This document shows, in pieces, positions 8,642 through 36,564 of a DNA stretch of 36,971 nt. Source of the stretch: Planctomycetales bacterium. Lineage in GTDB: Bacteria; Planctomycetota; JAKEIC01. Made by a program: the position numbers and the translations under genes. The stretch is from contig JAKEIC010000239.1 of assembly GCA_022614695.1 (NCBI GenBank), positions 1-36,971 of the forward strand. The letters are read 5' to 3'. A model generated the notes under the pieces. The model ran no database searches. It was not told where the DNA came from and was given only the letters and a program-made list of their open reading frames with translations. Position 1 is the first letter of the stretch. Every line of letters begins with the position of its first letter.

Positions 8642-9391
8642 CTACGCTCTCGCCCGCACCGTGAGGCTCGCGGCGGCGAGAAGCCCGGCGCCCATCGCCA
8701 CGAGGGCGCCGAGCCAGGGAGCCACCTCCGCGAAGGTCCTCCCGTCGCGCAGCAGCCCGAGGAGCACCTTCTCGGCGTGGGTGAGCGGGATCGCGTAGGC
8801 GATCGCGCGGAGCCAGCCCGGGAGCGACGCGAGCGGGATCACGAGGCCGCAGAGGAGGAGCGAGGGCGCGATCACGAGCGGGATCGTCGGGAAGACCTGC
8901 CCCTCGGTGCGCGCGAGCGCCGAGACGAAGACCCCGAGCGCCACCGAGACGACGGCGAGCGAGAGGGTCGTCGCGACGACGGGCGCCACGCGCCCCGCGA
9001 GCGGGACGTCGAAGGCGAGGAGCGTCGTCCCGAAGAGGAACGCGGTCTGGACCGCGGCGATCGTGCCGTAGCCGAGGACGTAGCCGAGGACCACCGAGGC
9101 GCGGCCGTAGCCCGCGGCGAGCGTCCGCTCGAGCGTCCCGTCCCGCCGCTCGCGGACGAGGACGATCGTCGAGAGGACGTAGGCGAGGAAGAACACGATG
9201 AAGCCGCCGGCCGGGAGCGCGTAGACCCCGATCCGGAGCCCGAGCCTCTGGAACATCGGCACGCCCTCGAAGACGGCCTTGAGCAGCAGGACCAGGAGCA
9301 CCGGCACCGCGCAGGCGAGGCCGACGAACCGCGGGTCCCGCGCGATCTGCGCGAGGATCCGCCGGGCGACGCGGGTGGTGTCGAGGAGCAC
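8642..9391 (-). CDS. ABC-2 type transporter permease
   Basis: A 249-aa integral membrane protein with six hydrophobic segments and the hallmark RERRDGTLERTLAAGYGR stretch after the second segment (about 81-98), typical of ABC-2 (DrrB/NodJ-type) export permeases. It probably pairs with the ATPase encoded at 10855-11748; the LanC-like lipoprotein gene lies between them on the same strand. The start is GTG at 9391. A TACGAT box ends 8 nt upstream and no SD is present, so this gene may have its own promoter as well as being read from upstream genes (90-bp gap). The substrate is unknown; a lipid, peptide or antibiotic-like compound would be family-typical. Confidence 0.85.
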   Translation of the reverse strand: MLLDTTRVARRILAQIARDPRFVGLACAVPVLLVLLLKAVFEGVPMFQRLGLRIGVYALPAGGFIVFFLAYVLSTIVLVRERRDGTLERTLAAGYGRASVVLGYVLGYGTIAAVQTAFLFGTTLLAFDVPLAGRVAPVVATTLSLAVVSVALGVFVSALARTEGQVFPTIPLVIAPSLLLCGLVIPLASLPGWLRAIAYAIPLTHAEKVLLGLLRDGRTFAEVAPWLGALVAMGAGLLAAASLTVRARA

Positions 9392-9399
9392 GGGGACCC

Positions 9400-9405
9400 A
9401 TCGTA
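9400..9405 (-). promoter_or_regulatory. -10-like TACGAT box before the permease
   Basis: TACGAT on the minus strand ends 8 nt before the GTG at 9391, with no SD between. It matches the TAnnnT pattern found before other starts in this window. Confidence 0.4.
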
Positions 9406-9481
9406 CACGGCCGTCCGGCGCCGCTCCCGCGGCCGGGCTCGGCGGGGAACTCCGGGCCGCCGCGGCGTCGCCCCGGGGCGC

Positions 9482-10828
9482 TCAGTCGCCGAAGGGGCTG
9501 TCGGGGAGGGCCGGCAGGCGGCGGCCCGCCTCCAGCGCGTGCATCTTCAGGAAGAAGAGGCCGATCCCGGCCGCCCCCTGGCCATAGCCGGCCTGCGCGA
9601 AGACCTCGTTCGGGCTGACGCGGTTCTCCGCCTGGACCCACTTGAATCCCGGCCGGCCCGGGGTGGCGCGGCGCACCAGGTCCTCGACGCACGCCTCCGC
9701 GCGGCGCCGGTACCGCTCGTCGCGGGTGAGGAGGTACATCTCGGCGAGGAACTCGCCGAGGCCGGCGGTCCCGCAGCACTGGCTCACGTTCCAGAAGCCC
9801 GGCTGGGGCTTCTCCGGGGCTCCGGAGGCCAGGACCCATCGCGAGCATCCGTCCACCCACGAGTCCCACGCGGGGTCGCCCGTGGCGCGCCGGAGCTGGC
9901 GGAAGAGGCGCGCGGTGCCGGCGGGGCCGTGGCACCAGCCGACGTAGTAGAGGTCGGTCGCGTCGGGCTCGTGGCGGTGCCACGCCGAGCCGGCGTCCGT
10001 CTTCTGGCGGTGCGCCGCGAGCCAGTCGGTCGCCTGCCGCGCGGCGGCGAGGAAGCGCTCGTCCCGCGTCGCCTCGTAGAGGACGGCGAGCGCGTAGGCG
10101 ACCCCCGAGGTGCCGTGCGAGAAGTTCGGATAGAGGCGGTCCCACGTCTCCGACATGCGCCAGCGGAGGCCGTCGCTGTCCCGCATCGCCCGCGCGACGA
10201 GGTGCTCGCCGATCCGGACGGCGGCGGCGAGGAAGCGGGGCTCTCCGAGCTCCCGGGACGCCCTCACGAGGAAGAGCGCGGCGCCCGCGGCGCCGTAGAT
10301 GATGTCGTACTTCGTCCACTCCTCGATCGGCCGGGCGGCGACCCACGCGGCGGCGCCGGCGGCGGCGCGGCGGTAGTCGTCGTGGCGGAGGCCGCGGTGG
10401 AGCTCGAGGAACGCGGCGCCGATGCCGGAGGCGCCGGTGTAGAGGCCCGGGTCGAGGACGGGCTTGCCGTCGTCGTCGGGCACGGACCAGCAGAGGCCGT
10501 CGCCGGCCGGGCGCGCCTGCGAGAGGAGCCACCGCGCGCCGCGCTCGGCCATCGCGCGGTCGTCCTCGTCGCCGGTGGCGCGGTACAGCTCGAGGAAGAA
10601 GAGGACGACGCCCGCGGTCCCGTAGTAGAGGTCGCCGCGCGGAGGGGCGGCGGACTCGGGCACGGCGCGCCAGGTCGCCGCGTCTCCCTCCGTGACCGCG
10701 TTGGCGCGCAGCCACGCCGCCGCCTCCTGCGCGAGCGCGAGATGGCGGGAAGGAGCGGGCGCAGGCGCCGCGGCGCAGGAGGAGCCGGCCATGAGTCCGA
10801 GCGTGACGGCGGCCCAGCGGCGGCGCAC
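9482..10828 (-). CDS. Exported LanC-like (lanthionine synthetase C-like) lipoprotein
   Basis: A 448-aa protein with a signal peptide and probable lipidation Cys18 (M-A-G-S-S-C context), then an alpha/alpha-barrel of the LanC type. Seven GxxG turns are visible (YGTAG, TGASG, YGAAG, HGTSG, CHGPAG, CCGTAG, QGAAG), one per helical layer. The zinc-site motif of LanC cyclases is C...CH. Here GWCHG supplies C299 and H300, and the second site is CCG (C351-C352) instead of CHG. Cytoplasmic LanC enzymes form thioether rings in lanthipeptides; this one is predicted to be exported and no precursor gene or dehydratase is visible, so it may act on another substrate such as a glycan. GTG 10828 is preceded by GGGGAGG. 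It sits 26 bp after the ATPase gene. Confidence 0.82.
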   Translation of the reverse strand: MRRRWAAVTLGLMAGSSCAAAPAPAPSRHLALAQEAAAWLRANAVTEGDAATWRAVPESAAPPRGDLYYGTAGVVLFFLELYRATGDEDDRAMAERGARWLLSQARPAGDGLCWSVPDDDGKPVLDPGLYTGASGIGAAFLELHRGLRHDDYRRAAAGAAAWVAARPIEEWTKYDIIYGAAGAALFLVRASRELGEPRFLAAAVRIGEHLVARAMRDSDGLRWRMSETWDRLYPNFSHGTSGVAYALAVLYEATRDERFLAAARQATDWLAAHRQKTDAGSAWHRHEPDATDLYYVGWCHGPAGTARLFRQLRRATGDPAWDSWVDGCSRWVLASGAPEKPQPGFWNVSQCCGTAGLGEFLAEMYLLTRDERYRRRAEACVEDLVRRATPGRPGFKWVQAENRVSPNEVFAQAGYGQGAAGIGLFFLKMHALEAGRRLPALPDSPFGD

Positions 10829-10854
10829 CGAGCGTCCTCCCCGTTTCGCCGAGC

Positions 10855-11748
10855 CTACCCGCCGGGGGCCGTGCGATCCAGGCTCGCCGAACTTCGCCCC
10901 CCGGCTCCGGGGTCGGACCTCTCGCCGATCAGGCGCACGAGCACGTCTTCGAGCGTGTCGGGCCGCACGCGCAGCTCGACGATCTCGCCCGCGCCGATCC
11001 CGGCGATCCACGGGGGCATTCCCCGGGCAGGGTCCTCGAAGCGCCGCTCGTGGACCGCGCCTGCGCGGGTGCGGGCCGTCGCGCTCGCCCCGCCGCGCGC
11101 GAGCAGGTCCGCGGGCGGGCCCTCCCAGAGGACGCGCCCCTCGCGGATCACGAGGAGGCGGTCGCAGTGGACCGCTTCGTCTATCTGGTGCGTCGAGACG
11201 AGGAGGGTGCGGCCCTCGTCCCGGAGCCTCCGGAACTCCTTCCAGAACTCGACGCGGAGGATCGGGTCTATCCCCGCCGTCGGCTCGTCGAGGAGGAGCA
11301 GCTCCGGGTCGCGCGCGAGGGCGCAGGCGAGCGAGACGCGCTGCTTCATCCCGCCCGAGAAACCGAGCACCGGGTCGCCCGCCCGGTCGGCGAGCCCGAG
11401 GAGCGCGAGGAGCCGGTCCACGCGGTCGTCGGGGACGCCCCGGCCGAAGTACCGGACGTTCGCGCGCGCGGGCAGCTCCTCGTAGAGCGCCGCCTCCTGC
11501 GGCATGTAGCCGATCCGGGCGCGGAGCGCGCCGTCGGCGCTCCCGGCGTCCGCCCCGAGCACGCGGAGGCTCCCCTCCGTCGGCCGCGCGAGCAGCCCCA
11601 CGCACCGGACGAGCGTGGTCTTCCCCGCCCCCGACGGCCCGAGCACGCCGACGATCGTGCCGCGCGGGATCTCGAGCGAGACCTCCGCGAGCGCAGCGAC
11701 GCGGCCGTAGCGCTTCCCGAGCCCGCGGGCGAGCACGGCCGGCTCCAT
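10855..11748 (-). CDS. ABC transporter ATP-binding protein
   Basis: A 297-aa ABC ATPase with Walker A GPSGAGKT (37-44), Q-loop Q84, signature FSGGMKQR (130-137), Walker B LLLLDEP (150-156) and switch His187. The family is the DrrA/CcmA-like class that energises ABC-2 exporters, and the C-terminal 85 residues after about 210 are the extra regulatory domain of that class. It is the first gene of a same-strand set with the LanC-like lipoprotein (26-bp gap) and the ABC-2 permease. ATG 11748 is preceded, 9 nt away, by TATCGT; no SD is present. It probably forms an exporter with the permease at 8642-9391. Confidence 0.92.
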   Translation of the reverse strand: MEPAVLARGLGKRYGRVAALAEVSLEIPRGTIVGVLGPSGAGKTTLVRCVGLLARPTEGSLRVLGADAGSADGALRARIGYMPQEAALYEELPARANVRYFGRGVPDDRVDRLLALLGLADRAGDPVLGFSGGMKQRVSLACALARDPELLLLDEPTAGIDPILRVEFWKEFRRLRDEGRTLLVSTHQIDEAVHCDRLLVIREGRVLWEGPPADLLARGGASATARTRAGAVHERRFEDPARGMPPWIAGIGAGEIVELRVRPDTLEDVLVRLIGERSDPGAGGRSSASLDRTAPGG

Positions 11749-11792: not shown

Positions 11793-12608
11793 TCAGCGCC
11801 CCGCGCCCCCCGAGGGAGGGAGCCGCCCCTCCTCGCACTCGGCGAGCCAGGCGCGCGCCTGCGTGGCGAGCTGCGAGTCCGGGGCGAGGCGCAGGAACTC
11901 CTCGAACTCGGCCTTCGCGCCCGCCCGGTCGCCCCGCTCGAGCCGGGAGCGGCCGAGGTTCAACCGGGCCTCGGCGAAGCCCGGGCGCAGCCGGACGGCG
12001 GCCGCGAACTCCTGCTCGGCCTCGGCGGCCCGCCCGAGGAGCCCGAGGGCGATGCCGCGATTGACGCGGGCGGTCCCGTCTTCCGGCGCGAGCCGGAGCA
12101 CCGCGTCGAAGTCGGCGAGCGCCGCCTCCGCCTCTCCCAGCTCCCGGCGCATCGCGCCGCGGTTGTTGAGCGCGTCGCGGTAGGTGGGCCGGATCCGCAG
12201 CGCCGCCGTGTAGTCCGTGATCGCCGCGGCCGCGTTCCCGAGGAGGCGATGCGCCTCGCCTCGCCGGAAGAACGAGTCCGCGTCTTCCGGGTCGAGCACC
12301 AGCGCAGCGGAGAGGTCCGCGAGGGCCGCGGCGGGCTCGCCCAGCACCAGGCGGACGTCTCCGCGGTTCCGGAGCGGCTGGACGAGCTTCGGGTCCCGCG
12401 CGAGCGCGGCGCTGAAGTCCTCCGCGGCCCCCGCGAGATCGCCGAGGGCCCGGCGCGTGACCCCCCGGTTGTTGTACGTCTGCGCGTCGTCCGGCCGGAG
12501 CGAGAGATGGAAAGTGTAGTCCTCGATCGCCCCCAGGAGATCGCCGGTCCCCTGCCGGATGAGGGCGCGGTTGAAGCGGACCGAGGGGTCCTGCGGGAGG
12601 AGAGCCAC
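11793..12608 (-). CDS. TPR-repeat protein, probable 3' part of a broken kinase/TPR gene
   Basis: Seven or so tetratricopeptide repeats, with recurring patterns such as NNRGVTRRALGDLAGAAEDF and NRGIALGLLGRAAEAEQEF, fill this 271-aa frame. TPRs bind protein partners. The frame is identical to that of the kinase fragment upstream. Between them a single TAA (12699-12701) interrupts what is otherwise continuous TPR coding: the codons after it read P-R-L-G-A-A-L-S-N-R, a normal repeat start. The GTG at 12608 is only the first possible restart and no SD precedes it, so this part may not be translated on its own. It is most likely the C-terminal half of one gene spanning 11793-13886, disrupted by a nonsense change. 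Confidence 0.65.
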   Translation of the reverse strand: MALLPQDPSVRFNRALIRQGTGDLLGAIEDYTFHLSLRPDDAQTYNNRGVTRRALGDLAGAAEDFSAALARDPKLVQPLRNRGDVRLVLGEPAAALADLSAALVLDPEDADSFFRRGEAHRLLGNAAAAITDYTAALRIRPTYRDALNNRGAMRRELGEAEAALADFDAVLRLAPEDGTARVNRGIALGLLGRAAEAEQEFAAAVRLRPGFAEARLNLGRSRLERGDRAGAKAEFEEFLRLAPDSQLATQARAWLAECEEGRLPPSGGAGR

Positions 12609-12698
12609 GGCCTCCTCCGCGTCTCGGAGCGCCCCGGCCGGGTCCCCGAGCGCCCCGCGCGCCTTCGAGCGGTTCGAGAGCGCCGCCCCGAGACGCGG

Positions 12699-13886
12699 TT
12701 AGATGCGGAGGGCCGCATCGCAGTCCTCGAGGGCGCCCTTCAGGTCCCCGCGCTCGCCCCGGAGCGCTCCCCGCTGGGTGTAGACCCCGGCGAGCGGGAC
12801 GCCGGACTCGAGGACGCGCGTGTATTCGCGGATCGCCGCGTGCCGGTCCCCGAGGGGGTCCCATGCCTCGACGTAGGCCCGCAGCAGCGATGCGTCCCAG
12901 CCGGGCTCGTCGCGGAGCAACGCCCGGGCCTCGAGCCAGTCCTCCCGGAGGATCGCCGCGAATGCCCGGGCGAGCCGGTACTCGCGCCCGCCCCCGGCAG
13001 CGATCGGCTGCACCGCCCCGGCGACGCGACGGGTCCGCTCGTCCCGCGGCGCCCCGACGTCGAAGGTCGCCTCGAGCGCCTCCGCGATCCGCGCCGCGGG
13101 TCCCTGGGGTGCGTCGGTCGGGACAGCCCGCCACGCGGCGCGGGCCCCCTCCCCGTCCCCGATCCCCCACAGGAGGATCCCGCGCTCGAGCCTCCAGGCG
13201 TGGCGGCCGGGCTCGGCCTCGAGCGCCTCGCCGAGCAGCCGCGCCCCCTCGCGGGGGTCGAGGGTCCGGACGGCGGCCGCCCGCGCGGCGAGGTCCTCGC
13301 CGGGCGGGCGAGAGCGCGGGGCGCCGGCCGGCGGGCCATGCACCGGGCCGTCCGGCCCGCGGGCCGAGAGGGCGGCAAGGGCCACCGCGCCGGCGACGAG
13401 GACGAACGCGACGCCCGCGGCCGTGACCGTGCGCCGCGGCGGGGCCAGGGGCGCCTCCCCGGCGAGGACGAGCGCGAGGTCGTCGCGGAGCGCGCCCGCC
13501 CCCGGGTATCGGCGGCGCGTGTCCTTCGTGAAGCAAGCGCCGACGACCCGCAGGAGCCCCGCCGGCGAGTCGGGCCGCAGCACCCGGAGGGGCGCCGGCC
13601 TCTCCAGGAGGATCCTCGCGACGAGCGCGGCGTCGGTGTCCGCCTCCCACGGCGGCCGGCCCGAGAGCATCTCGTGCAGCACGCACCCGAGGCTCCAGAC
13701 GTCCGTCGCCGGCGTGAGCGAGGCGGTCTCGCCGCGGGCCTGCTCGGGGGACATGTAGGCCGGGGTCCCCAGGGCGACGCCCGTGCGGGTGAGCTTCGAG
13801 CCGGTGGCGACGGACTTCGCGAGGCCGAAGTCGGCGAGGAAGCCGCCCGCGGGCGCCGGTCCGCGGGCCTCGGTCGGCTGCGCCAC
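12699..13886 (-). CDS. N-terminally truncated Ser/Thr kinase (C-lobe) with membrane segment and TPRs, probable pseudogene
   Basis: The 395-aa frame begins just before the DFG motif (ADFGLA at 18-23), followed by GTPAYMSPEQA and DVWSLGCVL, all normal for the C-lobe of bacterial Hanks-type kinases. The entire N-lobe is missing: there is no glycine loop, no ATP-binding Lys and no HRDxKPxN catalytic loop, and the divergent gene at 13937 takes the place where they should be. A membrane segment lies at about 155-172, followed by TPR-like repeats. The frame stops at a TAA within a TPR, and coding similarity continues beyond it in the same frame. It cannot be an active kinase as read. GTG 13886 has a TAGCAT box 7 nt upstream, so transcription may still occur. 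Confidence 0.7.
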   Translation of the reverse strand: MAQPTEARGPAPAGGFLADFGLAKSVATGSKLTRTGVALGTPAYMSPEQARGETASLTPATDVWSLGCVLHEMLSGRPPWEADTDAALVARILLERPAPLRVLRPDSPAGLLRVVGACFTKDTRRRYPGAGALRDDLALVLAGEAPLAPPRRTVTAAGVAFVLVAGAVALAALSARGPDGPVHGPPAGAPRSRPPGEDLAARAAAVRTLDPREGARLLGEALEAEPGRHAWRLERGILLWGIGDGEGARAAWRAVPTDAPQGPAARIAEALEATFDVGAPRDERTRRVAGAVQPIAAGGGREYRLARAFAAILREDWLEARALLRDEPGWDASLLRAYVEAWDPLGDRHAAIREYTRVLESGVPLAGVYTQRGALRGERGDLKGALEDCDAALRI

Positions 13887-15781: not shown

Positions 15782-17428
15782 CTACCGCCGCGCCCAGCCC
15801 GGGGGAGGCGGGACCCGGCGCATGGCGAGCCGCGCAGGCTCGTTCACGCGGAGGACCGGGAACTCGGCGCCGCGGCGGGGCCGCGGGCGGACGAGGTCCC
15901 AGCGCGCGAAGCCGTCGTCCGACTCGGGCTCGAGGAGGTAGATCGCGAGGTTCGCGAGGGGCTGCGCCATCGGGACGACGTGCGTCCCGGCCGGGAGGCG
16001 GCGCGTCACGACCTCGCTCCGGCAGTAGAGCACGTTCTCGTCGCGCTTCACGCGTCCGACGTCCGGGGAGTCGGTCTTGAGGACGTCGAGGACCACGTAG
16101 CGCTCGACCTGGAGCGTGGCCGGCCGCGAGAGCCTCTCGACGCGGATGTTGTGGGTGAGGAGCCGCCGCGCGAGGTCGCGGGGGACGAGGTAGGCGAGGG
16201 GGCGGGAGACGGACCGGGTCGCAATGAACTCTCGGAAGTGTTGGACACGGTACTTTGTCAACGTTCCCCCCGAGATCCGCCTCTTCAGTATCGTCTTGCG
16301 GTCCCACCCGAGGATGTCTGCCGGCTCGGAAAGCGGATGGACCGGGTACTCGAAGACGACGCGCCCCCTTGGCGCGCTGCGTGAGACACCGTACGCGATG
16401 CCGGTCCCGAGGAATGAGCGCCAGCGCGACGTCGGCGCCTCCACAGTCTTTCTCTCGGCGAGCCGGACTATCTCTTGTAGTCCGCGCGCCCTCCGACTTG
16501 CGAGTTGGAGGAGCTGTTCGAGCGTTGTGGACATCACCTGGACTCGCTGCCGGAAGGGGATGTAGCTGTAAGTCTCGAGCAGAACGTCCGCCCGACCCGT
16601 CAGGCCGCGGTAGTGGCTGCCGTATCGTGGAAGCGGCGAGTATGTCTGCCAGCCCTTCGTCGGATCTGTCTGATCCCTGTAGTTGCCATAGAAGAAGGTC
16701 CTCACGCCTCGGCCAGCCAGCTCGCGTCTCAATTCCTCGAGAAGCAGCATGTTGACAAACTCGATGGGTTCTATCGGTCCGCTCTTCGCCGTATGCGCCG
16801 TGTCGTAGGTCAGGTGGTATCCGTGTATGGACCCGTCCGTCGTGTGGCAGTCCACGGTGAGGTGCGGCCACCAGAGGCCGAAGAGGCGCGAGAGCGCGAT
16901 CGTCTCGGGGGCCTCCTGCTTCATGTAGTCGCGGTTCAGGTTGATCCCCTGCCCGGTGTAGCGCGTCCCCGCGCCGCCGTCCGGGCCGATCTGGCCGTCG
17001 AGCTTCTTCAGGTCGAGCCGCCGGTTCTCGGTGTTGATCCGGTCGTTCCCGTCCGCGTTGTAGTCGGGGACGAAGACGATCACGCACTTCCGGAGCCACG
17101 CGGGGGGACGGCCGCCCGGGGCGCGGACAGTCCAGTCCCGGAGCAGCATCTGGCAGGCCTCTTTCCCCTCCACCTCGCCCGCGTGGATATTGGCGATCAC
17201 GAGGATCCGGAGGAGCCCCTTCCTCTCGGCCGCCTCCGGCGTGAAGGCCCTCGCCGCCGAGAGGGTCGCCGCCACCATCGGCCGCCCCTCCGGTGTCCGG
17301 CCGAACGTGTGCAGCCGCACGAACCGCGTCCTCCGCGCGAGCCGGCGGAGGAAGTCCACCACCTCGGCGTGCGTCGAGGTCTCCCGGCACCCGGTCCGCT
17401 CGGGCTTCGTCAGGAGCGGCGCGTCCAT
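15782..17428 (-). CDS. M14 zinc carboxypeptidase-like protein
   Basis: A 548-aa protein whose first 300 residues match the M14 metallocarboxypeptidase fold. Zinc ligands are H82 and E85 (HAGEVEGKE) and H195 (DCHTTDG), the substrate-binding Arg is R166 (NLNRDY), and the catalytic Glu is E285 (LLETYSY). M14 enzymes remove C-terminal residues or cleave peptidoglycan side chains. The C-terminal 250 residues have no recognised domain. No signal peptide is visible from ATG 17428, although many relatives are secreted; start evidence is only the family N-terminus and a weak GAGAAT box nearby. The middle of the gene (about 16230-16850) is clearly lower in G+C (roughly 57-62%) than its ends (70-80%), suggesting a recombined segment. 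Confidence 0.88.
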   Translation of the reverse strand: MDAPLLTKPERTGCRETSTHAEVVDFLRRLARRTRFVRLHTFGRTPEGRPMVAATLSAARAFTPEAAERKGLLRILVIANIHAGEVEGKEACQMLLRDWTVRAPGGRPPAWLRKCVIVFVPDYNADGNDRINTENRRLDLKKLDGQIGPDGGAGTRYTGQGINLNRDYMKQEAPETIALSRLFGLWWPHLTVDCHTTDGSIHGYHLTYDTAHTAKSGPIEPIEFVNMLLLEELRRELAGRGVRTFFYGNYRDQTDPTKGWQTYSPLPRYGSHYRGLTGRADVLLETYSYIPFRQRVQVMSTTLEQLLQLASRRARGLQEIVRLAERKTVEAPTSRWRSFLGTGIAYGVSRSAPRGRVVFEYPVHPLSEPADILGWDRKTILKRRISGGTLTKYRVQHFREFIATRSVSRPLAYLVPRDLARRLLTHNIRVERLSRPATLQVERYVVLDVLKTDSPDVGRVKRDENVLYCRSEVVTRRLPAGTHVVPMAQPLANLAIYLLEPESDDGFARWDLVRPRPRRGAEFPVLRVNEPARLAMRRVPPPPGWARR

Positions 17429-17484
17429 CGGCCGGGCGATTCTCGGCCGGAGAGCCCCCGGGTCAAGCGAGCCGCGTCGAGTGA

Positions 17485-17528
17485 CCAGGTCGGTGCCAGG
17501 TTCGTCCCAGGTTGGTTCCAGGTACCGA
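17485..17528 (+). repeat. Four CCAGGT hexamers at exact 11-bp period
   Basis: CCAGGT begins at 17485, 17496, 17507 and 17518, each followed by a variable 5-bp spacer. All four hexamers would face the same side of the DNA helix. They lie between the divergent M14 gene (start 17428) and the small gene at 17624, so an array of activator or repressor sites is plausible. Confidence 0.6.
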
Positions 17529-17623
17529 CCCCAGGCGTCGCCTTGTCGTGTTCCTCTCAAGCCCTCCACCGCGCCATCCGATGCCCTCTGTGCCGCCCCT
17601 CGGGGGGCGCGCGGAGGTTTCCG

Positions 17624-17857
17624 ATGACCGAGCTCTCGAGTCGCGATGTCCTCTCGGCCCACGGCGCAGACGCCGTCCACGACCACATGGTCGCGTTCAT
17701 CCGGAGGAACTTCTCCGACACGCTGGGCTCGGACGTGGATCTCCTCTCGCTCCCCGAGGGGCTTCGCCTCATCCAGGAGCGGGTCTGGCTGCGCCTCATG
17801 GGCGGCAGGACCCGCCTCCTGCGAGCCCTTGCCCGGCTGCGCTCGGAACCGACGTAG
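17624..17857 (+). CDS. Small conserved-looking protein of unknown function
   Basis: A 77-aa protein, probably all alpha-helical, with a charged and amphipathic sequence (for example IRRNFSDTLG and GLRLIQERVWLRLM) and no signal peptide or membrane segment. I do not recognise a family. ATG 17624 is preceded by GGAGGT at a good distance, one of the best ribosome sites in the window, which is the main evidence that it is real. A hairpin terminator follows at 17881-17921. The upstream region holds the phased CCAGGT array, so expression may be regulated together with, or opposite to, the divergent M14 gene. Confidence 0.7.
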   Translation: MTELSSRDVLSAHGADAVHDHMVAFIRRNFSDTLGSDVDLLSLPEGLRLIQERVWLRLMGGRTRLLRALARLRSEPT

Positions 17858-31229: not shown

Positions 31230-31672
31230 GCGAAGGGAACCTCCCGCACGACCCGAGGCCCACCCCCGGCCGTCCGCCGGGGGGAGACCCGCGGCCAACT
31301 CCCAAGCGCCCGAAGGACTCCGAGTTCTTCGAGCTGCCGCCGAACCTCGCGGCGGGCCCGCCCAAGTCCCCGCCCATCGGCTCCCCCGCGTTCTCGCGCC
31401 CCGAGAGCGGGCTCAGGCCCAGCGCCTCGCTCGATGTCCGCGCCGTGATCGCTCTGGTGGCGGCGGTCGTCGGGGTCCCCGCCTCCTGGCCGATGGCCGG
31501 CGCCCTCTTCCTCCCGGCGGCGGCGCTGGGGCTCGGGGTCGTAGCCGTCCTCGGGATCCGCAAGAGCGGCGGGAAGCTCATGGGCACCCAGCTCGCGCAG
31601 GCCGCCGTCCTCCTCGGCGCGGCGACGCTCCTCGTGATGGGGCTCCTCCACCACGCGCTGCAGCTGGTTTGA
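31226..31672 (+). CDS. Small membrane protein with Pro-rich N-terminus (DUF4190-like)
   Basis: A 148-aa protein: a Pro-, Gly- and charge-rich cytoplasmic N-terminus (1-65), then two to three membrane helices (about 71-92, 94-112 and 122-146). The hydrophobic part, with the PAAALGLGVVAVLGIRKSGGKLMG segment, resembles DUF4190-type proteins of unknown function. Overlaps in GTGA upstream and TTGA downstream place it firmly in the operon. It may be a membrane partner or substrate of the kinase encoded next; that is inference from gene order. Confidence 0.75.
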   Translation: MSEGNLPHDPRPTPGRPPGGDPRPTPKRPKDSEFFELPPNLAAGPPKSPPIGSPAFSRPESGLRPSASLDVRAVIALVAAVVGVPASWPMAGALFLPAAALGLGVVAVLGIRKSGGKLMGTQLAQAAVLLGAATLLVMGLLHHALQLV

Positions 31673-34062
31673 GGATCGGCCCCTACGAGGTCCTCGGGGA
31701 ACTCGGCGCGGGCGGGATGGGGGTCGTCTACCGGGCCCGGGACCCGGAGCTGCGCCGCGAGGTCGCGCTGAAGGTCCTGCCCGGGGGCGCGCCGCCGGAC
31801 GTTCGGGCACGCTTCCTCCGCGAGGGACGCACCGGGGCGCGCCTCCGGCACGAGGGCATCGTCGCGGTCCACGCGGCCGGCGAGGCGGACGGGCAGGCCT
31901 ACATCGTCCAGGAGCTGATCGAGGGCGAGAGCCTCTCCCGGGTCCTCGAGCGCGGGACGCTTCCCCCCGAGCGCGCGGCCGCGATCGTCGAGAGGGTCGC
32001 CCGGTCGCTCTCCTACGCCCACGGTGAGGGGGTGATCCACCGGGACGTGAAGCCGGGGAACATCCTCCTCGACCGCGCGGGCGCGCCGCACCTCGCCGAC
32101 TTCGGGCTCGCGCGCACCGTGGAGGTCTCTGCCGCCCTCTCCCAGTCGGGGCAGGCGATCGGCACCCCGCACTACATGTCCCCCGAGCAGGCCGAGGGGC
32201 GGCCGGGGATGACCGACGCCCGGAGCGACGTCTGGGCCTGCGGGGTCGTCCTCTACGAGTGCCTCGCCGCCGCCCGGCCCTTCGAGGGGGGACCGCACTC
32301 GGTGATGGAGCAGGTCGTCCGGGACGAGCCGGCCCCTCTCCGGCGCAAGGTCGCGACGGTCCCGCGCGCCCTCGAGACGATCGTCTCCCGCTGCCTCGAG
32401 AAGGAGCCCCACCGGCGCTACCCGACGGCCGAGGCGCTCGCCGAGGACCTGGCGCGGTTCCTGCGGGGCGAGGAGGTCGAGGCGCGGCCGGTCTCGCTCG
32501 TCGAGAGGCTCCGCCGCCGGGTGCGGCGCAACCCCGCTCCCTGGGCCCTCGGCGCGGCGCTCGCGGCGACCCTCCTCCTCGTCGCGGGGGGGCTCGGCCT
32601 CTCCGACTGGCGGGAGCGGGCGCGCGTCGCCGAGGAGCTGCGGCTCGCCCGGGAGCTCGCCCCGGCGGACCCGGACCGGGCGATCGGGGTCCTCGACCTC
32701 CTCGCGAAGCGTGCCCCCGGGGCCCCCGGGCTCGAGGAGATCCGCGCGGCGGCCGACCGGAGGCGCGACGAGATCGAGGTGGAGAGGCTCCGCACGCAGG
32801 CCGGGGCGCTGCTCCGCGCCGGGGAGAAGGCGGCGCGGGAGCACGCCGGGGCGGCCGGCGACGCTCGGCGCCGGGACGCGGCCTACGCGGCCGCCCGCGC
32901 GGGGTTCGGCGGCTCGTGCGAGCTGCTCGCGTCCCACCCCGACGCCCCGGAGCGGCGCTCGGCCTCGGGAGCCATGGCCGCCCTCGCGGCGGAGAGGCTC
33001 CGCGAGGCCGAGGCGGCCGGCGACGAGGAGGCGGCCGCCCGCTTCGAGGCCGACCTCCGCGCCTTCGGGGCGGAGTCGCACGCCCGGGAACTCGAGGGCT
33101 CAGGGACGCTCTCGCTCGACACGGTCCCGACCGGGGCGGAGGCGGAGCTCCTGCGCTTCGAGCCGCAGGACGGCGCGCTCGTCCCGAAGCCCCTCCGGTC
33201 CCTCGGGCCCACCCCGATCCGGGAGGCGCCCCTGCCCATGGGCTCCTACCTCCTCCTCCTGCGGAAGCCCGGGTTCCTCGACGCGAGGCTCACGATCCGG
33301 GTCGAGCGCTGCGAGGCGGAGGCGGCCCCCGACCCGGTTCCCCTGCTGACGGAGGGGCAGGTCGGGCCGGGGTACGTCTACGTCCCCCCGGGCGAGACGG
33401 TGCTCGGCGGGGACGCCGAGGCGACCCTCGCCTGGCCCCGCCGGAAGGTCCGGCTCCCGGGGTTCCTCATCGCCGAGCGCGAGGTCTCGATGCGCGAGTA
33501 CGGCGAGTTCCTGGCGTCGCTCCGGGCCTCGGGATTCCCGGAGGCCGAGGTCCGCCGGCGGGCCCCTCGCCGGATCGCGGGGGACCCCTTCGGGCGCCTC
33601 CCCGAAGATTGGCCCGCGCTCGGGGTCTCGTGGGAGGATGCCGAGGCCTACGCCGCCTGGAGGACGGGAGTCGAGGGGCGGGCGGTCCGGTTGCCCCGGC
33701 AGGAGGAGTGGGAGAGGGCGGCGCGCGGGGCGGACGGGAGGCCCTACCCGTGGGGCCCGGCGTTCCGGTGGGACCGCGTGGTCGGCGCGCGGAGCCCCGA
33801 CCAGCCCGACGGCCGTCCCTCGCCGCGCCCCGTCGGATCGGCCCGCGACGACGTCTCCCCGTTCGGCGTCCGCGACCTCTCCGGGAGCGTCGTCGAGTGG
33901 TGCGCGGACGAGGTGGCGCGCGGCCTCCGGGCCGTCCGCGGCGGCGCGTGGAACTACGCCGACGCGGCCGCCTTCCGAGTGGCGGGCCAGGGCGGCTACC
34001 AGACCGACAACGTGAGCGATGCCGTAGGATTCCGGGTGGCCGCGGAACCGCGGCCGAGGTAG
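31669..34062 (+). CDS. Membrane Ser/Thr protein kinase with PEGA and FGE-sulfatase (SUMF1-like) domains
   Basis: A 797-aa Hanks-type kinase. The cytoplasmic domain has the glycine loop GAGGMGVV (13-20), Lys35, HRDVKPGN (124-131), DFG (144-146) and GTPHYMSPEQ (165-174), so it should be active. A membrane segment (about 291-311) leads to a helical region, a PEGA-like domain (about 480-545; LDTVPTGAEAEL) and a C-terminal FGE-sulfatase domain (about 565-797; LPRQEEWERAARGADGRPYPWG and RGGAWN). The FGE fold here is probably a binding sensor, as no paired active-site Cys is obvious. TTG start overlaps the previous stop (TTGA). It is followed after 3 bp by a paralogous kinase. Confidence 0.92.
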   Translation: MRIGPYEVLGELGAGGMGVVYRARDPELRREVALKVLPGGAPPDVRARFLREGRTGARLRHEGIVAVHAAGEADGQAYIVQELIEGESLSRVLERGTLPPERAAAIVERVARSLSYAHGEGVIHRDVKPGNILLDRAGAPHLADFGLARTVEVSAALSQSGQAIGTPHYMSPEQAEGRPGMTDARSDVWACGVVLYECLAAARPFEGGPHSVMEQVVRDEPAPLRRKVATVPRALETIVSRCLEKEPHRRYPTAEALAEDLARFLRGEEVEARPVSLVERLRRRVRRNPAPWALGAALAATLLLVAGGLGLSDWRERARVAEELRLARELAPADPDRAIGVLDLLAKRAPGAPGLEEIRAAADRRRDEIEVERLRTQAGALLRAGEKAAREHAGAAGDARRRDAAYAAARAGFGGSCELLASHPDAPERRSASGAMAALAAERLREAEAAGDEEAAARFEADLRAFGAESHARELEGSGTLSLDTVPTGAEAELLRFEPQDGALVPKPLRSLGPTPIREAPLPMGSYLLLLRKPGFLDARLTIRVERCEAEAAPDPVPLLTEGQVGPGYVYVPPGETVLGGDAEATLAWPRRKVRLPGFLIAEREVSMREYGEFLASLRASGFPEAEVRRRAPRRIAGDPFGRLPEDWPALGVSWEDAEAYAAWRTGVEGRAVRLPRQEEWERAARGADGRPYPWGPAFRWDRVVGARSPDQPDGRPSPRPVGSARDDVSPFGVRDLSGSVVEWCADEVARGLRAVRGGAWNYADAAAFRVAGQGGYQTDNVSDAVGFRVAAEPRPR

Positions 34063-34065
34063 GCC

Positions 34066-36564
34066 CTGAAGATCGGCCCCTACGAGGTGCGCGGGGAGCT
34101 CGGCGCCGGCGGGATGGGCGTCGTCTACCGGGCCTGGGACCCGGAGCTGCGCCGCGACGTCGCCCTCAAGGTCCTCTCGCTCGGCGCGCCGCCCGACTTC
34201 CGGCAGAGGTTCCTCCGCGAGGGGCGGATGGGGGCGCGGCTCAAGCACCCCGGGATCGTCGCCGTCCACGCGGCCGGCGAGGCCGACGGGCAGGCCTTCA
34301 TCGTCCAGGAGCTGATCGAGGGGGAGAGCCTCTCCCGGAGGTTCCTCGAGGGGCCCCTCCCGCCCGGGACGGCGGCGCGGATCCTGGAGAAGGTGGCCCG
34401 GGCGCTCTCCTACGCCCACGCCGAGGGCGTGGTCCACCGGGACGTGAAGCCCGGCAACATCCTCCTCGACCGCGCGGGCGACCCGCACCTCGCCGACTTC
34501 GGGCTCGCGCGCGAGGCGGACGCCTCGATCCAGCTCTCGCGGAGCGGGGAGGCCATCGGGACGCCGCACTACATGTCTCCCGAGCAGGCCGAGGGGAAGC
34601 CCGGCCGCGTGGACGCCCGCACCGACATCTGGGGCTGCGGGGTCGTCCTCTACCAGGCGCTCTCGTGCGCGCTTCCCTTCGAGGGGGGCGCGAACCTCGT
34701 GATGGAGCGGGTCCTCGCGCGGGAGCCGGTGCCGCTGCGCCGGCGCCGCCCCTCGGTCCCGCGCCAGCTCGAGGCGATCGTGGACCGCTGCCTCGAGAAG
34801 GACCCCGGGCAACGCTACCCGACGGCGGAAGCGCTCGCCGACGACCTCGCCCGGTTCCTCCGGGGAGAGCCGACCTCCGCGCGGCCGATCGGACCCGTCT
34901 CGAGGATCGCGCGACGCGTCCGCCGGAACCCCGTCCCCGCGGCCGTGGGAGTCGTGGCTCTCGCCCTGGGGGCGGCCGGCGGCGTCGCGGCGCTCTGGTG
35001 GGCGACCCGGCCGGCCCCCTGGCGCCTCGTCTTCGAGGACGACTTCGAGCGGGCGGATCTCGGGGAGGCCTGGGCGAACGTGATCCGCGGCGACGTCCGG
35101 ATCCACGACGGGGCGCTCTGCTCGCGCGTCGGCCACGTGGCCTTGGACCTCCGGTTCGCCGACGACGTCGCGCTCGAGGTGACGGCCACCGTCCAGCCCG
35201 ACGCGCGGCGGCCGGTCGAGGCGAGCGTCTTCCTCTCGGGGACCCCCGCGTCGGGGCTCCGGGCGGGGTACTCCTTCGAGCACGGGATCGTCCCGTACGG
35301 CGAGTCGGGAGCGACGGACCTCGTCCAGAGGCTCGGGAGGACCGTGCTCCAGGTGGACACGAAGCCGCTCGTCCCCGGGGTCCCGTCCCGGCTCGAGGCC
35401 CGGCGCGACTCGGGCCGGGTCGTCTGGACGGTGGACGGACGGGAGCGGGGCCGCGTCCGGGACCGGGACCCGCTCGAGGGGGACCGGATCGGGATCGGCT
35501 CCAACTGCGACCACATCCACTACGACGACCTGCGCGTCTGGCAGCGCCTCGCGGACCCGACGCTCGCGGCGCTCCGGCGCGCGCAGGGCCTCGCGCGCAC
35601 GGCCCGGCCGGACGCGGCGGCCGAGGCCGCCGGGGAGGTGGCGGCCGACGGGCGAGCCGCGCCCGAGCTCGTGCGGGCGGCCACGGAGATCCGGGTGCCC
35701 GCGATCGCGCGGCGCGACCCGATCGCGGCGTCCCACGAGCTCGCGGCGCTCCGGCCCCGCTGCGGGCTGGTTCCGCGGGAGGTCTCCTCCTTCATCCGCG
35801 GGCTACTGGACGGCCCGGTCGCGGCGGGAGGCGACCGGAAGGCCGTCGAGACCCTCCGGCGCCTCCGCGTCGAGGGAGACCCGGACTACCGGAGCGCGGC
35901 GGCCGAGGCCCTCGAGGCGGTGGCCATCCGGAACCCCGCCGCCGCGCCGGAGGAGGCGGCCGCGCTCCGGGAGCGGGAGGCGCGGGACCCGTCCGCCCAC
36001 CCGCGGTGGACCCTCGAGGAGGCCCTCGCCGCCTGGGACGCCTCGGGCCGGGACGCCGCGCGGCTCCGGATCGGGCCCGACGTCGGCGCGGGTCCCGACC
36101 CGCTCACGGACCGGTGGCGGCGGATCCTCCTCGCGCTCCTCGAGGGGACGTCCGAGGGCCGGGGCCGGATGGGGGACGAGGCCCGCGAGTCGTTCGTGGA
36201 CTGCGCGGTGCCCGCGGCGCTCCTCTCCTACGCGGGGGCTCTCGGGGCCGGCGACCCTCCCGACCTCTCCAAGCGTCGGGCCGACCTGGACGCGCTCGCA
36301 AGGCGGCCCCACCTCGACGTGGGGCTCCCCCAGCGACGCATCATCGCCGCCCTCTCGGGCCTCCCGGAGGAGGAGATCGCGCGGGACCTCCCCCCGTTCG
36401 CCGCTCCCGTCGGGTCCCGCGACGCCGCCCTGGTCGCCTCCCTCGGGGCCTTCTTCCGCGGGGATCGGGCCGCCGGCCGCGCCGCGCTGGAGCGCTACCT
36501 CGCCCAGGAGGATCCCGGGAGCCTGCGGGGCCTCGCGCGGGAGATCCTGGCGGCGGGACGCTAA
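34066..36564 (+). CDS. Membrane Ser/Thr protein kinase with concanavalin-like extracellular domain
   Basis: An 832-aa paralogue of the preceding kinase, near-identical in layout over the first 290 residues: glycine loop GAGGMGVV, Lys35, HRDVKPGN and DFG all kept. After the membrane segment (about 291-314) comes a ConA/LamG or DUF1080-like beta-sandwich (about 322-500; LVFEDDFERADLGEAW, LRAGYSFEHG, RLEARRDSGRVVWTVDG), then a helical region of 330 residues. The outer domain could sense a glycan. Start: the family N-terminus (x-K-I-G-P-Y-E-V) requires a CTG at 34066; the GTG at 34087 would remove seven conserved residues. Only three bases (GCC) separate it from the previous TAG. Confidence 0.88.
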   Translation: MKIGPYEVRGELGAGGMGVVYRAWDPELRRDVALKVLSLGAPPDFRQRFLREGRMGARLKHPGIVAVHAAGEADGQAFIVQELIEGESLSRRFLEGPLPPGTAARILEKVARALSYAHAEGVVHRDVKPGNILLDRAGDPHLADFGLAREADASIQLSRSGEAIGTPHYMSPEQAEGKPGRVDARTDIWGCGVVLYQALSCALPFEGGANLVMERVLAREPVPLRRRRPSVPRQLEAIVDRCLEKDPGQRYPTAEALADDLARFLRGEPTSARPIGPVSRIARRVRRNPVPAAVGVVALALGAAGGVAALWWATRPAPWRLVFEDDFERADLGEAWANVIRGDVRIHDGALCSRVGHVALDLRFADDVALEVTATVQPDARRPVEASVFLSGTPASGLRAGYSFEHGIVPYGESGATDLVQRLGRTVLQVDTKPLVPGVPSRLEARRDSGRVVWTVDGRERGRVRDRDPLEGDRIGIGSNCDHIHYDDLRVWQRLADPTLAALRRAQGLARTARPDAAAEAAGEVAADGRAAPELVRAATEIRVPAIARRDPIAASHELAALRPRCGLVPREVSSFIRGLLDGPVAAGGDRKAVETLRRLRVEGDPDYRSAAAEALEAVAIRNPAAAPEEAAALREREARDPSAHPRWTLEEALAAWDASGRDAARLRIGPDVGAGPDPLTDRWRRILLALLEGTSEGRGRMGDEARESFVDCAVPAALLSYAGALGAGDPPDLSKRRADLDALARRPHLDVGLPQRRIIAALSGLPEEEIARDLPPFAAPVGSRDAALVASLGAFFRGDRAAGRAALERYLAQEDPGSLRGLAREILAAGR

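Follow-up and report, generated by a model that had tools for sequence, protein, structure and literature searches.

A LanC-Like Protein with a Predicted Export Signal, Encoded Between the ATPase and Permease Genes of an ABC-2 Exporter in Planctomycetota

The Locus and Its Genes

The window considered here is an entire contig of 36,971 bp with a GC content of ~75%, taken from a 5.0-Mb, 88% complete assembly of a member of the Planctomycetota. Within it, positions 8642 to 11748 are filled exactly by three minus-strand genes. The first encodes a DrrA-like, ABC-2 type exporter ATPase (10855..11748, minus strand; PF00005, 107 bits), the second a LanC-like protein of 448 amino acids that is a predicted exported lipoprotein (9482..10828, minus strand), and the third an ABC-2 type permease that is the probable partner of the ATPase (8642..9391, minus strand; PF01061 ABC2_membrane, 97.7 bits). 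Coordinates and Pfam domains agree exactly with the gene order given in a preliminary description of this DNA. Gaps of only 26 and 90 bp separate the genes, which leaves no space for a precursor gene inside the three-gene block. The LanC-like gene begins with a GTG start at 10828 and is preceded by GGGGAGGA.

Several other genes of the window deserve mention. Directly upstream of the ATPase gene is a Ser/Thr kinase-TPR gene (11793-13886, minus strand) that is decayed in appearance: its TPR part is broken by an in-frame TGA near 12699, possibly a sequencing error, and the kinase N-lobe is absent, the match covering Pkinase positions 139-251 only. Sequence motifs also point to two large Ser/Thr protein kinase genes in tandem at 31669-36564 (plus strand), with products of 797 and 825 amino acids. 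The window (15782-17686, minus strand) and its nearest sister locus (L054:1-3171, minus strand) each encode M14 zinc carboxypeptidases within a few genes of the LanC-like one, which may be chance.

Family Membership and Fold of the LanC-Like Protein

The product of the middle gene matches the Pfam LANC_like model (PF05147) with 138.9 bits (E 2e-40), against a curated cut-off of 23.2 bits. Weak matches (~32 bits) to stretches of the GH127, GH88, and GH76 glycosidase models also exceed their respective cut-offs. An AlphaFold2 model built from 63 aligned sequences has a mean pLDDT of 94.5 and consists of seven helical hairpins that supply 14 barrel helices. When this model was compared with the PDB using Foldseek, the top 21 matches were all of the LanC/LANCL type, with TM-scores of 0.59–0.67; they include LanCL2, CuvL, MadC, LanCL1, GCR2, LicM2, NisC, ThurKC, and SalKC, and the scores to LanCL, MadC, and NisC are 0.62–0.67. 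Glycosidases (GH76) and sugar epimerases rank below these, with TM-scores of at most 0.52. The Pfam E-value, together with a structure match of E 1e-12, places the similarity beyond chance. Given the Pfam score, the seven-hairpin fold, and the PDB matches, the protein is a true member of the LanC superfamily, both by sequence and by fold.

A Candidate Three-Cysteine Zinc Site

The probable active site was located by aligning a profile of 15 family members to human LANCL1. In this alignment, H238 corresponds to His219 (SHG/AHG motif), C299-H300 to Cys276-His277, and C351-C352 to Cys322-His323. C299, H300, C351, and C352 occupy precisely the positions given in the preliminary description, and all four are invariant in the 63 aligned sequences, which come from several phyla; H238 is conserved in at least 90% of them. 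Two further invariant residues, R403 and Q417, share a C-terminal segment with Arg364 and Glu374 of LANCL1, in a part of the alignment that is unsure.

The chemistry of this site is known from related enzymes. LANCL1 relies on zinc for thiol activation, on His219 as proton donor to the enolate, and on His277 to hold the carbonyl (PMC9934072). The position of His277 is a His in LANCL, ProcM, and HalM2, and a Tyr in stand-alone LanC enzymes (PMC9934072). In enzymes of the ProcM clade, the zinc ligands are three cysteines (PMC13060382). The window protein carries GWCHG and CCG motifs, which had been taken initially as a zinc motif kept only in part. That assessment needs to be revised: since the three cysteines align to the LANCL1 ligands and three-Cys sites are known from the ProcM clade, the set appears complete rather than partial, and C299, C351, and C352 form a candidate three-Cys zinc site. 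The idea that CCG marks a loss of zinc was likewise rejected, as ProcM-clade enzymes are active with sites of this three-Cys type. A concern that the Cys and His residues might lie far apart is eased by the LANCL1 alignment, in which they fall on zinc ligands.

Export Signals

The N-terminus of the LanC-like protein, MRRRWAAVTLGLMAGSSC, satisfies the PROSITE lipoprotein rule at Cys18, and the signal sequence with its lipobox-like cysteine is encoded at 10775..10828 (minus strand). Its hydrophobic stretch is short and falls below the threshold of a crude signal-peptide score. Since the window's own signal is short and weak, the export call leans on the relatives as well. Among these, the strict PROSITE lipoprotein rule is satisfied by 13 of 80, versus 3.2% of other genes in related loci, and a Sec, lipoprotein, or Tat-like signal is found in 50 of 71 by the crude signal score. 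In several further relatives with a mis-chosen start codon, a signal is visible on inspection. Twin-arginine signals are clear in six members (L070, L072, L104, L106, L110, and L123). No signals are found in members from the Caulobacteraceae, Acidimicrobiales, Synergistaceae, and Lachnospiraceae, and one subgroup is cytosolic. These counts suggest that most of the family is exported. The prediction that the window protein is exported as a lipoprotein with a lipobox-like cysteine thus holds up, as the PROSITE rule applies to it and export signals recur among its relatives.

Lanthipeptide Machinery in the Genome

LanC enzymes are best known from lanthipeptide synthesis. Domain profile searches against the sampled genome (88% complete) returned a single LanC domain and no match to the LanM dehydratase domain PF13575 or the LanB dehydratase domain PF04738. 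Nor is a fused kinase and lyase of classes III/IV present, as the 448-amino-acid protein consists of a LanC domain only and is the genome's sole LanC. The lack of a dehydratase noted around the gene thus extends to the sampled genome. As far as this 88% of the genome shows, a single LanC and the absence of LanB and LanM domains make ordinary lanthipeptide synthesis unlikely.

The ABC Exporter as Partner or Neighbor

The two flanking genes supply the ABC_tran ATPase and ABC2_membrane permease domains of an ABC-2 exporter, although the ATPase scores 187.7 bits against the drrA model, below its cut-off of 312. Since the preliminary description had proposed that exporter and LanC-like protein form a common envelope system, 80 genome loci and 20 from Planctomycetota were examined for the association by means of tblastn, clustering, a Pfam tally, and background counts. 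Relatives were collected from 392 Planctomycetota genomes, 34 of which had a match, and from a collection of genome contigs with 140 relatives, 80 of which were kept.

An ABC ATPase lies within three genes of five of the 80 relatives (6.3%); the corresponding figure for the remaining genes of these loci is 5.9%, and the five cases include importers (L130 and L131) and an ABC-F-like protein (L082). Among 128 direct neighbors, ABC_tran occurs four times, and the ABC-2 permease domain is not among the 25 commonest families. No recurrent neighbor family was found beside the LanC-like relatives; operon-like direct neighbors all differ, and no other conserved operon partner emerged.

The exporter genes can also be followed in their own right. 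Relatives of the ATPase in L164 and L165 share 55% and 50% identity with it, and are followed directly by relatives of the permease with 44% and 42% identity. In the closest relatives of the pair (G145 and G114), the ATPase gene adjoins the permease gene with no LanC gene between them. Two loci point toward a partnership. In L054, the nearest sister (SH-aLRT 96–98), a DrrAB-type pair lies one gene downstream of the LanC-like gene, but its ATPase is only 34% identical to that of the window and the gene order differs. In G145, a distant exported LanC-like gene is located ~5.5 kb upstream of the related ABC pair. Since about one hundred loci were examined, such neighbors are expected by chance. 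A further genome, G232 (L172), has a similar LanC gene with no ABC neighbor within the stretch searched.

The proposed LanC–ABC envelope system is therefore not borne out: ABC genes stand at background frequency, homologs are scattered without them, no neighbor recurs, and the pair is intact without LanC in G145 and G114. The ATPase is probably an ordinary neighbor of the LanC-like gene, and the simplest reading is that the LanC gene was inserted into an ordinary DrrAB-like exporter operon.

Distribution and a Fused Protease-Like Domain

LanC-like relatives with predicted export occur in the Planctomycetota, Acidobacteriota, Bacteroidota, Gemmatimonadota, and others. In a sister lineage, six genomes of the phylum of G392 were searched and a match was found in G392 only, while the class of G016 was represented by one genome. 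No relative was found in viral contigs with a single-protein query, and PHROGs gave no match to the LanC-like protein. Annotated plasmid matches in Mesobacillus and Nonomuraea have no informative gene context. Cytosolic relatives of the Synergistaceae and Lachnospiraceae (L130:3262-7943 and L131:2550-12121) are encoded beside amino-acid/oligopeptide ABC importers and near PLP enzymes of Cys/Met metabolism, perhaps a hint of thioether amino acid use.

Adjoining the window protein and L054 in the tree are LanC domains with predicted export that are fused to a C-terminal domain of ~500 amino acids (L039, L041, and L050; SH-aLRT 87). In another locus (L102:11409-12983), this domain has a gene of its own, immediately following that of the LanC protein. 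The domain has no Pfam name. In a structure search with its model (pLDDT 90), gingipain K, separase, and TPR-CHAT came out on top, which is suggestive of a clan CD protease fold, although the TM-scores are weak (≤0.42). A Cys-His pair is invariant, and the HG motif appears to have lost its usual catalytic His, reading GDP instead. The domain co-occurs with LanC-like genes in 17 of 29 genomes, versus 2.5 expected, mostly by fusion. This association of the clan CD domain with LanC is far stronger than that of ABC genes with LanC, although the domain is absent from the window.

Proposed Function

Taken together, the middle gene would encode a stand-alone, extracytoplasmic zinc LanC enzyme that probably catalyzes thiol chemistry, and would be an insertion in an otherwise ordinary exporter operon; the probability of this reading is put at roughly 0.5. 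Points against it are the short, weak signal of the window protein, the cytosolic subgroup among the relatives, the weak glycosidase matches, and the unusual placement of reduced cysteines in an oxidizing envelope. In such an enzyme, zinc held by C299, C351, and C352 would bind and activate a thiol, while H300 would steady the other substrate and H238 would protonate it. The outcome might be either addition of the thiol to an electrophilic double bond, for instance that of a dehydroamino acid, or its elimination to leave one, and the reaction would be sited in the envelope instead of the cytoplasm. We infer thiol addition or elimination on an electrophilic alkene outside the cytoplasm, and a likely use would be to quench or modify the dehydroamino-acid groups that exported proteins or incoming peptides carry. 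The flanking genes would encode the ATPase and permease of an ordinary, DrrAB-like exporter of the ABC-2 type, with the LanC gene inserted into its operon.

The chief alternative is a carbohydrate-active or carbohydrate-binding alpha/alpha barrel that has only the LanC fold in common with these enzymes. The above-threshold matches to GH127, GH88, and GH76, and the placement of GH76 and sugar epimerases next in the structure search, speak for it. Set against this are the LANC_like score of 138.9 versus about 32 bits, the 21 best structures, all LanC/LANCL (0.59–0.67 versus at most 0.52), and zinc cysteines invariant in 63 relatives, which a glycosidase would not need; a sugar-related function is accordingly deemed unlikely. 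A non-catalytic zinc- or thiol-binding envelope protein, serving as a sensor, scavenger, or chaperone, would accord with the general rule that reduced cysteines, and with them a Cys3 zinc site, are unusual in the oxidizing envelope. It is nonetheless improbable, as not only the ligands but also the acid His238 and the oxyanion-type His300 are conserved, which is what catalysis predicts.

About as improbable is that the lipoprotein works with the ABC exporter after all, either modifying the exporter's cargo once it is in the envelope or receiving it there. Such a role would fit the tight gene order of the window (gaps of 26 and 90 bp), L054 with a DrrAB-type pair one gene downstream, and G145 with an exported LanC-like gene near the related pair. 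In contrast, ABC ATPases near the relatives do not exceed background (5 of 80 versus 5.9%), ATPase and permease are adjacent without LanC in G145 and G114, the L054 pair is of another lineage, and the LanC gene of G232 (L172) has no ABC neighbor in the stretch searched. Least probable by far is that the protein is a conventional lanthipeptide cyclase whose dehydratase is encoded elsewhere in the genome and works with it in trans. Superfamily membership and the ~12% of the genome that is missing would allow for it, but the signal sequence, the single LanC without PF13575 or PF04738 in the sampled genome, and relatives that likewise stand alone all argue against it.

Beyond the window, a broader and more tentative proposal, which we hold at less than even odds, is that LanC enzymes outside the cytoplasm form a widespread family, so far undescribed, to which the protein belongs. 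Members would carry lipoprotein, Sec, or Tat signals, occur in several phyla, and perform zinc-dependent thiol addition or elimination on dehydroamino-acid groups of the envelope, with a clan CD (gingipain-like) protease fused to the enzyme in some planctomycetes. Known LanC chemistry either serves antibiotic synthesis in the cytoplasm or adds glutathione in eukaryotic cells; to our knowledge, no bacterial example has been described that is both extracytoplasmic and unrelated to lanthipeptide synthesis. If the proposal is true, a conserved, catalytically complete, exported LanC family would represent a new envelope modification or detoxification reaction, and the window protein would be a directly testable enzyme. 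Such a family could also account for part of the "unclassified" LanC-like proteins discarded by genome mining: of 12,705 LanC-like proteins surveyed, 3052 remained unclassified, and some of these lie near ABC transporters and proteases (PMC7268733).

Comparison with Known Systems

A search of the open-access literature found no description of exported LanC-like proteins. Four known groups offer a comparison. DrrAB-type ABC-2 exporters share the ATPase and permease domains of the flanking genes. The window pair differs from them in scoring below the curated drrA/drrB cut-offs and in having a LanC gene between the two genes.

The class I LanC cyclases, such as NisC and MadC, resemble the window protein as stand-alone, seven-hairpin toroids with a zinc site. 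NisC, however, has a Tyr where the window protein has H300, employs a Cys-Cys-His ligand set, and is a cytoplasmic enzyme that works with LanB. The cyclase domains of ProcM-clade LanM enzymes have, like the window protein, a three-Cys ligand set and a His after the first Cys (PMC13060382, PMC9934072). They are cytoplasmic, whereas the window protein is predicted to be exported; it also lacks a dehydratase domain and has no precursor gene between it and its two neighbors. The window protein would thus possess the same kind of metal site as the ProcM clade but is not a member, because the dehydratase is absent even though the three cysteines are present.

Finally, LANCL1 and LANCL2, the eukaryotic LanC-like glutathione transferases, are among the best PDB matches and share the fold, the WCHG motif with a His after the first zinc Cys, and the catalytic acid His. 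They differ in showing only ~18% identity, in having CHG where the window protein has CCG, and in not being exported; in the alignment, the glutathione-binding residues of LANCL1 have no confident counterpart in the window protein.
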